A DNA stretch of 64,000 nt from Candidatus Chloroploca sp. Khr17. GTDB lineage: Bacteria; Chloroflexota; Chloroflexia; Chloroflexales; Chloroflexaceae. The stretch lies in assembly GCF_004138165.1 (NCBI RefSeq), contig NZ_RYFF01000002.1, forward strand, positions 186,001-250,000. Direction: 5' to 3'. Position numbers and translations under genes: made by a program. This document shows, one piece after another, positions 53,553 through 58,992 of this stretch. The stretch's first letter is position 1. Every line of letters starts with the position of its first letter. The notes under the pieces are model-generated. The model saw nothing but the letters and a program-made list of their open reading frames with translations. It had not been told where the DNA came from and did no database searches.

Positions 53553-54605
53553 ATGGAGCAGCAAGATCGACTCGTTAGCCCCAGGTCTGAGGGGGACGAT
53601 CAGCAGGTTGAAAAGAGTCTGCGCCCGCGTAGCCTGACCGAATTTATTGGTCAGGAGAAGGTTGTGGCGCAACTGCGGATTGCGATTGCTGCGGCGCGTG
53701 CGCGTGGCGAGCCCCTGGATCACACCCTCTTTTATGGGCCTCCTGGCCTTGGCAAGACGTCGCTCTCGAATGTGATTGCGCACGAGATGGGCGTCAAGAT
53801 CAAGGTGACGAGTGGCCCGGCGATCGAACGGGCCGGTGATCTCGCCGCGTTGCTCACCAATCTCCAGAAAAATGACATCCTCTTCATTGATGAGGTACAC
53901 CGCCTCAATCGGGTGGTTGAAGAGGTGCTCTATCCGGCGATGGAAGATTTTGCCCTCGATCTGATCGTCGGTAAAGGGCCGAGTGCGCGTAGTTTGCGGC
54001 TCAAGTTGCCTCGTTTCACCGTTATTGGGGCTACAACGCGCCTCGCTTTGCTGACTTCGCCGCTCCGCGATCGTTTTGTTGCGCCCCATCGCCTTGAGTT
54101 TTATGCCGATGCGGCGATGTGCGAGATCGTCGTTCGTTCGGCGCACATTCTTGAGGTTCCGATCACGGCTGAGGCTGCGCTGGAAGTGGGCCGTCGAGCA
54201 CGTGGCACGCCCCGTATTGCCAATCGCCTGTTGCGTCGCCTACGCGACTATGCCCAGGTTGTCGCCGAGGGGCAGATCGATCTCGAGGTTGCGCGAGCGG
54301 CTCTTGCTCAGCTTGAAGTCGATGATCTTGGCCTTGATGAAAATGATCGCCGCTTGCTGCGGGCGATTATTGAACTCTTCAACGGTGGTCCTGTCGGGCT
54401 CTCGACGCTCGCTGCTGCCCTTGCCGAAGAAATTGATGCCATTGAGGATGTCTACGAGCCTTTTTTGCTTCAGCTTGGTTTCCTCCAGCGCACGCCCCGT
54501 GGCCGCATTGCGACGCGCCGTGCCTTTGAACACCTCGGTTTGCCGTTCTCCGAAAAGACACCTTCGTCGCCTGATGACAATGATTTGCAGCCCCGCCTCT
54601 GGTGA
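53553..54605 (+). CDS. ruvB: Holliday junction branch-migration ATPase RuvB
   Basis: A 350-residue AAA+ motor that works with RuvA and Ruv[21 protein letters not shown] opens the ATPase domain; Walker A is [14 protein letters not shown] and Walker B is [10 protein letters not shown]. The sensor segment includes [18 protein letters not shown], and the C-terminal winged helix contains [20 protein letters not shown]. Length is usual. ruvA and ruvC are not adjacent. A possible extended -10 TGGTATGCT (hexamer 53495-53500) lies upstream; I see no LexA-box-like sequence there. Confidence 0.97.
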
Positions 54606-55584: not shown

Positions 55585-58500
55585 ATGGATAGCAATTCGC
55601 AATCAGGTGGTCGACATGGTGGGGGCGATCTTGTTACCGCCCTGCAACAGATTGCCCGCCAACGCACGCGCAACGAATCCCCGTTGCTTACGGTGCAAAC
55701 CTTTGCGAAACGTGCAGGGGTGCGCATTTCCCACTTGCCTATTCACCAGCATCTGGAACAGGCATGGATTCGTGTTGTTGGTGAACCGTTTCATCAGCAT
55801 CAGGCGCTGGCGCTCGCGTCTCTACGTCGTGGTGAACCGCTGGCTCTTATGGGCGGTGCTTCTGCCCAGCAAACGCTCTCGCTGCTGCTGGCAGAGTATG
55901 TGCGCGACTCTGCTCCTTCGACTGCGCTGGTGCTGGTTCCCGATGATCTGAGTGCAACTCATTACGCTGCCGATCTCGTCCGATTGACCGCAGCGCTACC
56001 CGAGCCATTGCGTGTGGGTATCGCTGCGGGATCTGGTGTGCGCACCGCTATGGCGGCTCAGGTGATCGTGGCGACTCCTGCCATGCTGCATCAGCGCCTC
56101 TTGCGTCACCATGATCGCGCCTGGACGGCCTTCTGGTTGCGGTTACGCACGGTGGTGTTACTCAGCGCTCATGCCTATACCGGTGTTGCTGCCGCTCACC
56201 TTGAGGCTCTGTTGCTCCGTGTGCGCCGTTTGAGCCCCGCACGTGCCAGCCTTCAGTATATGGCAACGATCGCTCCTGTTACCGGGGCAGAAGAGGCGCT
56301 TGCTACGATGAGTCGGGTCGCCTGGCGTGTTATTTCCGCCCACGATACCCTCTCCCCAGAGGTGACGCTCGCGGTCTGGCGCACGGGTGCCGAACGGATT
56401 CGCGATCTCGTGGCGCTCACCCTTGGTCTCGCGCGTACTGCAACCTCGCTTCATGTGACGTGCCCTCCGTTTGAATTGGCGCTGGTGCAGTCTGTTGTCG
56501 GTCAGGATGAACCAGCGGTGAGTATCGGCTTGCATGCTGTCCCTGCCGAGGTGCAGATCTTTCCTAGTCTGAGTGGTGTTGCGGCCTCACTCCGAGCAGC
56601 GCTGGATCGTACGCGGTTGATTGTTTTGATGCTCGGTGATGATCCTGTGGAACATATGCTCGTACGTATGGCAATGCAGGATCAGTTTCCTTTGCTTGAT
56701 GGTCAGCCTCCTGTATGGATTGTTGCCCCTGGCAATAGCTATGTCGAGGCCCAGCATCTGTTGTGTGCCGCCAGCGAACAGCCGTTGCAAGCCGCTGAAG
56801 TGGCGGAAGAGTGGCAGTCAATGCCGATGGTGCAGCATTTGCAACAGCAGGGTCGGCTCCGTGTATTGCCAGGCTCTGCTCAGATGTGGCAACCTGCTGC
56901 TGGGCCGCAAGATCCCTATGCTGCCTTCACTGTGCAGAGCGTTGAGGGTGAAGTCGCTCGTCTTGTGAGCCCCCAGGGTGCGGATCTCGGTTCGGTCACG
57001 ATGGCGCTGTTTGATCGCTGGGGTGCGGTCAATGCGGTCTTGCCCCCCTTTGGCCGTGGCTATCGTGTGCTCGAGCGCGATGAAGTGAAGCTTGTGCTGA
57101 CGCTGAGTACGGCCTATGAGTCGCGCCGTACGATGCCGCTGCGCCGGTGTAGTGTGCATGTGCGCGAGCGCCGTGAACAGCGTGCGATCCGTGGCCTCGA
57201 CGTTGCCTGGGGGCGGGTGACTTTTGATGAGGAGATCTATGCCCTGCGCGAAGTCAATGCCAGCAATGTGATCACGCAGGTGCCGCTGGACGAGCCAATC
57301 ATGGGGAAGTGGACCGCCCCGGCGCTCTGGATTGATCTGGTAAACGGGATCAAGGCCGAGGGCCAGGTGATGGGTTGGTCGCTCGTGATGGCGCTGCCGC
57401 TTGCTACCCTTGCCTCGATCTACGATCTTGTGCCTGCGTATGATGAAGAAGCCCGCAGGCTCTATTTTGTTGATACCGAAGCAGGTGGCAATGGGGTCGC
57501 CTACTGGCTCTATCAGGCGCTTGAAACACTCTTGCCGCTTGCCTATGATATTGTGAATCAACGCGGCCTTGATCCGCTCTTCGAGACGGTGGCGCGTGCG
57601 GATAAGGATTGGTTGCTTGCCCTGCTTGCCGGCGGCCAGACAGTTGCGCCGCCCCAGCCACGTTCCGGCGTGCGTCCTCAGCCGGTGCCACCTCCTCAGT
57701 CTTCGCCTCCTGCTCGTTTGTCGCAGCGACCGACAGCGATCCCTCCGACCGATGCGCGGCGCACTGCCGCTTCATCCGTGCCTCCCTCGGGTGGAGCGGC
57801 GTCGGGGCGCGGGGCGTCCGGCGAACCGCCCGCGCCGGTGCGCCAGGAGTTGACTGGCCCGCCGGGTGGGGGGGCGTTCGGCGAACCGCCCGCGCCGGTG
57901 CGTGAGCCGGTGACGGGCTCGCCGGGTGGAGCGGCGTCGGGGTGCGGGGCGTCCGGCGAGCCGCCCGCGCCGGTGCGCCAGGAGCTGACTGGCCCGCCGG
58001 GTGGGGGGGCGTCCGGCGAACCGCCCGCGCCGGTGCGTGAGCCGGTGACGGGCTCGCCGGGTGGAGCGGCGTCGGGGTGCGGGGCGTCCGGCGAGCCGCC
58101 CGCGCCGGTGCGCCAGGAGTTGACTGGCCCGCCGGGTGGGGGGGCGTCCGGCGAACCGCCCGCGCCGGTGCGCCAGGAGTTGACTGGGCCGCCGGGTGGG
58201 GGGGCGTCCGGCGAACCACCCGTGCCAGTGCGTGAGGAAGTGACAGGTGCGCCGGGTGGCGTGGCGTCGGGGCGCGGGGCGTCCGAGGTGCCACCCGTGC
58301 CAGTGCGTGAGGAAGTGACAGGTGCGCCGGGTGGCGTACGTGGGTCGGGTAGCGAAACGCCGGTTCTCATCTCACCGCAAACACCTGCTGACGAACCGGA
58401 TCAGGAACGTGAAGCGCCTCCGCCTCCCCGTACACGTTCATCAGGCAAAGCCCGGACGCCTTCGTCTTCATCATCATCGTCTGCACGCAAGCCGCCAAAG

Positions 58501-58992
58501 TCAGATGCGAATGCGGCTACGCCAGACGAAAAAGGCACAACTCCGAGTATGCCACGTAGTCGCCGTGCCGATCAAGCTTCGCGTCCACCTGCGCAGGCTG
58601 GAGCGCCTTCCAAAGCTGCTCCTCCAACGAGCCCGCCTCCGCGGTCTGCGCCACCCCAAGAACCGCCTGCGCCACCACTGCCCGAACCACCGCCCGTTAT
58701 GCCTGACGCCGCCGCGATGGTGGAACGGTTACGGCGCATGCGTCAGCAGCAGGAAGCCCAGAAGCAGCACCAGACGACACCATCGCGGCCAGTTTCGTCG
58801 AGGTTCGAGCCGATTGAACCGCGTTTTCTCCCTGGCGACCAGGTGCTCTGCAATCCTTATGGGGAAGGCGAGGTTCTTGCCAGCCGGATCGAGGATAACC
58901 GTGAAATCCTTATTGTCGCCTTTCCCATCTATGGACATCTCACGATTGACGCCATTGTAAGTGCGGTACGTCTTGTTCAGGCACGCAGCTAG
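55585..58992 (+). CDS. ATPase-dead MrfA/Hrq1-like helicase with C-terminal Tudor-like domain
   Basis: An 1135-residue protein. The N-terminal core follows the order of MrfA/Hrq1 (DUF1998) superfamily 2 helicases: FHQHQALALASLRRGEPLAL (about 69), ATPAMLHQRLLRHHDRAW (about 163), VVLLSAHAYTGVAAAHLEAL (about 190), and the motif III-like QYMATIAPV (about 224). But Walker A reads MGGASAQQT without GKT, and the DExH box reads LLSAHAY, without Asp-Glu. Residues 530-680 match the DUF1998 region (YFVDTEAGGNGVAYWLYQAL) without its zinc cysteines. Residues 746-918 are eight proline/glycine repeats; a basic, proline-rich stretch follows. The last 60 residues (FLPGDQVLCNPYGEGEVLAS) resemble the Tudor domain of PcrA/UvrD. 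ATP hydrolysis is unlikely; a structural or RNA-polymerase-linked repair role is inferred. Confidence 0.75.
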   Translation: MDSNSQSGGRHGGGDLVTALQQIARQRTRNESPLLTVQTFAKRAGVRISHLPIHQHLEQAWIRVVGEPFHQHQALALASLRRGEPLALMGGASAQQTLSLLLAEYVRDSAPSTALVLVPDDLSATHYAADLVRLTAALPEPLRVGIAAGSGVRTAMAAQVIVATPAMLHQRLLRHHDRAWTAFWLRLRTVVLLSAHAYTGVAAAHLEALLLRVRRLSPARASLQYMATIAPVTGAEEALATMSRVAWRVISAHDTLSPEVTLAVWRTGAERIRDLVALTLGLARTATSLHVTCPPFELALVQSVVGQDEPAVSIGLHAVPAEVQIFPSLSGVAASLRAALDRTRLIVLMLGDDPVEHMLVRMAMQDQFPLLDGQPPVWIVAPGNSYVEAQHLLCAASEQPLQAAEVAEEWQSMPMVQHLQQQGRLRVLPGSAQMWQPAAGPQDPYAAFTVQSVEGEVARLVSPQGADLGSVTMALFDRWGAVNAVLPPFGRGYRVLERDEVKLVLTLSTAYESRRTMPLRRCSVHVRERREQRAIRGLDVAWGRVTFDEEIYALREVNASNVITQVPLDEPIMGKWTAPALWIDLVNGIKAEGQVMGWSLVMALPLATLASIYDLVPAYDEEARRLYFVDTEAGGNGVAYWLYQALETLLPLAYDIVNQRGLDPLFETVARADKDWLLALLAGGQTVAPPQPRSGVRPQPVPPPQSSPPARLSQRPTAIPPTDARRTAASSVPPSGGAASGRGASGEPPAPVRQELTGPPGGGAFGEPPAPVREPVTGSPGGAASGCGASGEPPAPVRQELTGPPGGGASGEPPAPVREPVTGSPGGAASGCGASGEPPAPVRQELTGPPGGGASGEPPAPVRQELTGPPGGGASGEPPVPVREEVTGAPGGVASGRGASEVPPVPVREEVTGAPGGVRGSGSETPVLISPQTPADEPDQEREAPPPPRTRSSGKARTPSSSSSSSARKPPKSDANAATPDEKGTTPSMPRSRRADQASRPPAQAGAPSKAAPPTSPPPRSAPPQEPPAPPLPEPPPVMPDAAAMVERLRRMRQQQEAQKQHQTTPSRPVSSRFEPIEPRFLPGDQVLCNPYGEGEVLASRIEDNREILIVAFPIYGHLTIDAIVSAVRLVQARS
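57820..58340 (+). repeat. Tandem 60/75-base coding repeats
   Basis: Eight units encode variants of GEPPAPVRQELTGPPGGGAS. Basic units are 60 bases; longer ones add AASGCG or AASGRG. Several units are identical over most of their length, so recent duplication is likely. The array is in frame within the helicase-like gene. Confidence 0.85.

Follow-up and report, generated by a model that had tools for sequence, protein, structure and literature searches.

The gene at positions 55585 to 58992 of the window, by which we mean the whole stretch of 64,000 nucleotides analysed here, encodes a protein that is almost certainly a conserved non-enzymatic factor. Because it combines the build of the DNA helicase MrfA, with every ATP motif erased, and a docking domain, and because it occurs in nearly the whole order Chloroflexales, this protein, called pseudo-MrfA below, is most likely a non-enzymatic scaffold. 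There are good grounds to regard it as an ancient, order-specific dead branch of the MrfA/YprA family, probably docked by a Tudor domain and serving in transcription or repair. The source genome belongs to Chloroflexales; among named organisms, it is closest to Candidatus Chloroploca asiatica and C. mongolica (95% identity). The features of the gene are as follows.

55585..58992, + strand: whole pseudo-MrfA gene, 1135 aa, open frame, orthologues in Chloroflexales
55729..56394, + strand: RecA1-like domain (aa ~49-270, boundaries approximate), from the AlphaFold2 model and the MrfA alignment, catalytic motifs erased
55852..55875, + strand: former Walker A, GGASAQQT (aa 90-97), TATASGKT in active relatives
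56164..56175, + strand: former DExH box, SAHA (aa 194-197), first Asp in 0/65 orthologues and 19/19 active proteins
56260..56277, + strand: former motif III, MATIAP (aa 226-231), SAT in active relatives
56395..56709, + strand: RecA2-like domain (aa ~271-375, approximate), shortened, no recognisable motif IV or V, arginines of motif VI deleted
56722..56949, + strand: winged-helix domain (aa ~380-455, approximate), PF22982, invariant N384, A395, A396, E398 and P400
56950..57633, + strand: canopy and DUF1998/MZB-like module (aa ~456-683, approximate), PF09369, GGNG kept, zinc cysteines lost
57640..58704, + strand: low-complexity Pro/Gly-rich linker of variable length, pLDDT <50 from aa 685
57788..58334, + strand: in-frame tandem repeats within the linker, units of 60, 75, 135 and 195 bp
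58708..58770, + strand: charged helix (DAAAMVERLRRMRQQQEAQKQ region) preceding the Tudor domain, conserved in most orthologues
58822..58989, + strand: predicted Tudor domain of the PcrA/UvrD type at the C-terminus (aa 1080-1135), from profiles and model

MrfA-type fold of the core

The preliminary description of this DNA had proposed a full-length MrfA/Hrq1-type protein in an intact frame; the motifs that it quoted (ATPAMLHQRLLRHH, SAQQT, HAYTGVAAAHLEALLLRVRR, SAHA, MATIAP, GGNGVAYWLY, and GDQVLCNPYGEGEVLASRIE) were all verified, and the frame is indeed open across all 1135 aa. In single-sequence searches, pseudo-MrfA matched TIGR03817 at 4.7e-27 and the MrfA chain 6znp at 2.7e-9, and a profile of 66 orthologous cores matched 6znp at 1.5e-47 with both halves of the chain covered. 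The best solved structures for an AlphaFold2 model built from the orthologue alignment (pLDDT 90.2, pTM 0.90) were MrfA with and without DNA (Foldseek 8e-39), and the alignment of model residues 11-681 with MrfA residues 4-749 gave a VIA Z of 31.6 over 563 residues. A chance likeness to MrfA is ruled out by the TIGR03817 match, the profile match and this Z. The orthologue profile, the model, and the structural alignment all agree on a full-length MrfA architecture, with the core predicted to be a RecA-like pair. Among the 66 orthologues, Pfam recognised the HRQ1 winged helix (PF22982) in 61 and MZB (PF09369) in 50, but DEAD in just 8.

Over its whole length, the core thus shares the fold of MrfA/YprA, the DUF1998 SF2 DNA helicase of B. 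subtilis (6znp/6znq/6zns), with two RecA-like domains, a winged helix, a canopy, and an MZB-like module. It differs from MrfA in being without Walker A, DExH, motifs III, IV, V, and VI, and the zinc cysteines, and in having the linker, the charged helix, and the Tudor domain as additional parts. By membership, pseudo-MrfA has the MrfA fold, yet it is no MrfA helicase. The flexible linker is 43-804 aa long in relatives, and the length of the whole protein varies among Chloroploca species (993, 1101, and 1135 aa).

Loss of the ATPase motifs

For the comparison of motifs, the orthologues were aligned with 19 motif-bearing MrfA-like paralogues, and columns were counted in the 65 near-full orthologues. 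All 19 paralogues have GK[ST] and a full DExH at the expected places, no orthologue has either, and the Walker lysine is found in 0/65 orthologues vs 19/19 active proteins. The motif VI arginines are deleted in 64/65 orthologues, and in the other motif columns, motifs III, V, and VI (SAT, TNALELGVDIG, and QQAGRxGR in MrfA) are mostly replaced; at the MrfA zinc site, none of the nine conserved columns is kept in half of the orthologues. The loss of both ATPase motifs, noticed in the preliminary description, is therefore borne out and proves to be wider, since it extends to motifs III-VI and to the cysteines of the zinc site, and the alignment of Chloroflexales orthologues holds none with GKT and DEAH. 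Of the 36 motif I-VI columns that are conserved in active proteins, only three are kept in most orthologues, whereas 68 of the 194 other columns are (Fisher p = 8e-4); the loss is therefore selective. The orthologues have kept motif Ib (TP..LH) and the helix that follows the DExH box, and farther on also the winged helix and the GGNG region. From these sequences, ATPase and 3'-5' unwinding activity are predicted to be absent from pseudo-MrfA.

Distribution and selection in Chloroflexales

Counting fragments at contig edges, pseudo-MrfA was found in 77/82 Chloroflexales genomes; its homologues, which match along most of the core, represent all four families. The genomes lacking it are four that are 60-86% complete (G011, G018, G061, and G080) and one that is 7% contaminated (G030); because these five are incomplete or contaminated, the protein is missing from no genome that combines a completeness of at least 90% with a contamination of at most 5%. 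Outside the order, no pseudo-MrfA was found in 400 genomes drawn from the phylum, where matches reached at most 149 bits. The best three of these matches outside the order are frames with MrfA motifs, DExH and QQAGRVGR being present in all three and Walker GKT in two, while the frame without GKT is incomplete. The orthologues form one clade (support 100), whose branching follows the families and which joins the tree of active MrfA through a long branch.

In twelve close pairs, dN/dS was 0.03-0.21 for the core, 0.06-0.31 for the C-terminal module, and 0.07-0.55 for the linker, which mostly had the highest value. Judged by these ratios, pseudo-MrfA is under purifying selection. A local pseudogene, a frameshift, or an assembly error would be another way to read the missing motifs, and one relative only (G032) has a stop within the match, but order-wide conservation, intact frames, and dN/dS well below 1 led us to reject this reading, whose probability we regard as negligible. 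The preliminary description had left it between tolerance and selection that the motifs are lost; the order-wide absence of the motifs, the single clade, and the purifying selection point to a loss that was selected and not accidental. In the one relative with a stop (L043, G032 C1:171601-173289), whose genome is 98% complete, a TAG interrupts the orthologue frame and leaves a frame of 599 aa, possibly a single loss.

Other helicases and genome context

An active MrfA in the same genome had been suggested as something to look for. TIGR03817 above its cut-off was found nowhere in the source genome, and the genome has no separate active MrfA; apart from pseudo-MrfA, the DUF1998 proteins encoded there comprise a DISARM DrmB-like protein and giants similar to Druantia DruE, which measure 1665-1816 aa and keep their motifs intact. 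A weak second match in the source genome (L002) was discarded as a cation-transport ATPase-like frame and no MrfA. The five loci concerned (L164, L165, L166, L167, and L168, on C93, C24, C35, C158, and C32) comprise four DruE-like giants and one DrmB-like protein, so that the genome is rich in YprA-type defence genes. The YprA-family defence helicases (DISARM DrmA, Druantia DruE, and ARMADA) belong to the same superfamily as pseudo-MrfA, but the DruE-like proteins are much larger and their motor motifs are intact, and pseudo-MrfA, unlike the defence helicases, belongs to the core genes of the order and is inherited vertically.

Across the order, an active MrfA-like helicase occurs in just 18/82 genomes. 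A division of labour between pseudo-MrfA and an active MrfA in the same cell is for this reason not general, and since the source genome has no active MrfA either, pseudo-MrfA is independent of it; it is retained in nearly all members of the order although most of them are without an active MrfA. A role as a substitute for missing Mfd was also rejected: Mfd is present in 55/56 good Chloroflexales genomes, including the source genome, and because it is nearly always there, pseudo-MrfA is no stand-in for it. A further YprA-type paralogue of 911-949 aa (TIGR03817 455-479 bits) was seen in three Chloroflexales genomes, at G041 C1:93519-95777, G046 C1:2780636-2782831, and G049 C13:139337-141487.

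Gene neighbourhoods compared across families revealed no common neighbour and indicated no pathway. Within single groups, 19 f1 loci have an alpha/beta hydrolase gene as an upstream neighbour on the opposite strand, and an SSB gene lies directly downstream on the same strand in seven f4-g21 loci (L066-L069, L077, L084, and L085); ffh is found near these SSB-linked loci, upstream and on the other strand. In the window, a RuvB-like Holliday-junction helicase is encoded at 53553-54605, upstream of pseudo-MrfA and on its strand; a single solute-binding-protein-like gene separates the two, and this link was not seen in other families. Promoter and terminator scans near the start of the gene gave nothing useful, and the literature searched held no description of a pseudo-MrfA from Chloroflexales.

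The C-terminal Tudor domain

A Tudor domain, which in pseudo-MrfA carries an invariant Cys at aa 1089 and an invariant Tyr at aa 1092, was found in all 53 complete tails. Its profile, compared with the PDB, had the RNAP-interaction domains of CarD, UvrD, and PcrA on top (E 0.008-0.2), and in the host genome its sole match besides itself was the C-terminus of the host PcrA/UvrD (6e-5). In the other direction, PF21196 gave 12.4 bits (E 0.15) against the domain of pseudo-MrfA, the curated cut-off being 23.9, and matched 12/53 tails at E up to 1, the best at 3.2e-6. The model of the domain (pLDDT mostly >93) has as its nearest fold the PcrA Tudor 5dma (TM 0.81 on target, rmsd 1.9 A), followed by UvrD tails, of which one was solved with an RNAP lobe (7egs) and one with UvrB (7egt); CarD is matched by both the profile and the model, and Mfd by the model. 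The single HMM matches are borderline, and it is their agreement together with the model that argues for a Tudor domain of the PcrA/UvrD type. The fold proposed for this tail in the preliminary description is therefore upheld by the profile matches, the match to the host PcrA tail, and the model.

That the domain was gained is a different matter. The Tudor domain is present, but its gain is uncertain because a motor-intact MrfA relative also carries a PcrA/UvrD-like Tudor tail. This helicase of 926 aa (L154:1182-3959, G489 C93) comes from another Chloroflexota lineage, and its C-terminal domain matched PF21196 at 4.6e-4, below the curated cut-off. Three further MrfA-motif helicases (L149, L150, and L151) bear other short C-terminal extensions, that of L149 ending in GDTVELLGHGPATVLQIEG, and the Tudor models had no match on the C-termini of these three proteins.

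The domains of PcrA/UvrD (PF21196; 5dma, 7egs, and 7egt) and of pseudo-MrfA share the fold and the C-terminal position after a disordered linker, but the former sit on an SF1 motor and the latter on a dead SF2 core, and across the order His681 of PcrA is replaced by Cys and Lys712 mostly by Leu. The RNAP-interaction domains of CarD/CdnL and Mfd, which bind RNAP beta1, likewise have a Tudor-like fold but stand in other domain architectures.

Candidate partners of pseudo-MrfA

The Tudor domain probably binds a protein partner, and we put the chance that this partner is RNAP at somewhat short of even. The preliminary description had envisaged a DNA-binding pseudo-helicase tethered to RNA polymerase. 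In such an arrangement, the Tudor domain would sit on RNAP beta, and where complexes stall, the dead core would clamp DNA or RNA. In its favour are the best matches of the Tudor domain by fold and profile, which are the RNAP-interaction domains of PcrA, UvrD, CarD, and Mfd, and the UvrD C-terminal domain solved with an RNAP lobe (7egs). However, alanine at any of H681, W684, K712, and L714 severely cuts RNAP binding by PcrA (PMC5397179), and while the W684 position has kept an aromatic residue (Y/W/F in 50/53 tails) and the L714 position is mostly Ile or Val, the H681 position is Cys in 53/53 tails and the K712 position is Leu, mostly, Ile, or Val in 51/53. In addition, the published helicase-interaction motif (PMC8318588) was looked for in the host RpoB and is absent. 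Tethering to RNAP in particular is thus not supported. As for the putative DNA binding of the core, the median lysine count is 3 and the net charge -10 in orthologues, compared with 11 and -2 in active relatives, and neither motif IV nor motif V is left. Because the core is net acidic and poor in lysine, strong DNA binding is not favoured. Taken together, RNAP tethering with clamping by the core is conceivable at roughly one chance in three.

An excision-repair scaffold is improbable in our estimate. In this reading, the Tudor domain would bind UvrB, or some other protein that has the hairpin motif, and the lesion complex would be organised by the dead core. The reading could draw on the T. 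thermophilus UvrD C-terminal domain solved with UvrB (7egt) and on the host UvrB, whose FDPLTGEVI is one letter off the published helicase-interaction motif (PMC8318588) that RpoB is without; moreover, MrfA itself works in nucleotide excision repair, and a role of MrfAB in excision repair is on record (PMC12458937). Nevertheless, changes at K712 and L714 of PcrA lowered UvrB too in pull-downs (PMC5397179), and pseudo-MrfA has no gene linkage to uvr genes.

Whether the core touches nucleic acid at all is evenly balanced in our view. One of the best-kept elements is motif Ib, a motif situated at the nucleic acid in SF2 helicases, and this counts against a purely structural scaffold that would act through its core surface in some complex. 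The loss of motifs IV and V, the net negative core, and the many retained residues in winged helix and canopy are in keeping with such a scaffold, which we hold to be unlikely, if less so than a repair scaffold built on UvrB. In the reading that we prefer, the partner on which the Tudor domain docks pseudo-MrfA would belong to the machinery of transcription or excision repair, and there the dead MrfA core, instead of working as a motor, may act as a static scaffold that holds protein or nucleic acid.

Significance

MrfA-type helicases have been studied as ATP-driven machines of repair and defence. A known counterpart of a dead member is the pseudohelicase PriA of Deinococcus radiodurans, which no longer hydrolyses ATP or unwinds but still binds DNA and its partner (PMC4504706). 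As in pseudo-MrfA, the helicase motifs were lost across a lineage and the protein was kept; the differences are that the Deinococcus protein is of the PriA family, with DNA binding and the DnaB partner measured, whereas pseudo-MrfA is of the MrfA family and described here from sequence and model. By this analogy, pseudo-MrfA most likely works like such a pseudohelicase. A recent survey of the YprA family mentions no Tudor domain and, in its relevant passages, no dead branch (PMC12458937).

We tentatively propose, with a little less than even confidence, that pseudo-MrfA may be an order-specific, ATP-independent coupling factor of transcription or repair, derived from MrfA, fixed in the RNAP or excision-repair apparatus of Chloroflexales and docked there by its own variant of the Tudor domain. 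A dead enzyme retained order-wide points to functions of the fold besides the motor. If confirmed, pseudo-MrfA would reveal what the canopy and the RecA pair of MrfA do when there is no translocation. It would then also be a natural example of a docking domain common to SF1 and SF2 proteins and, in a group with phototrophs among its members, a lineage-specific addition to the transcription or repair of bacteria.
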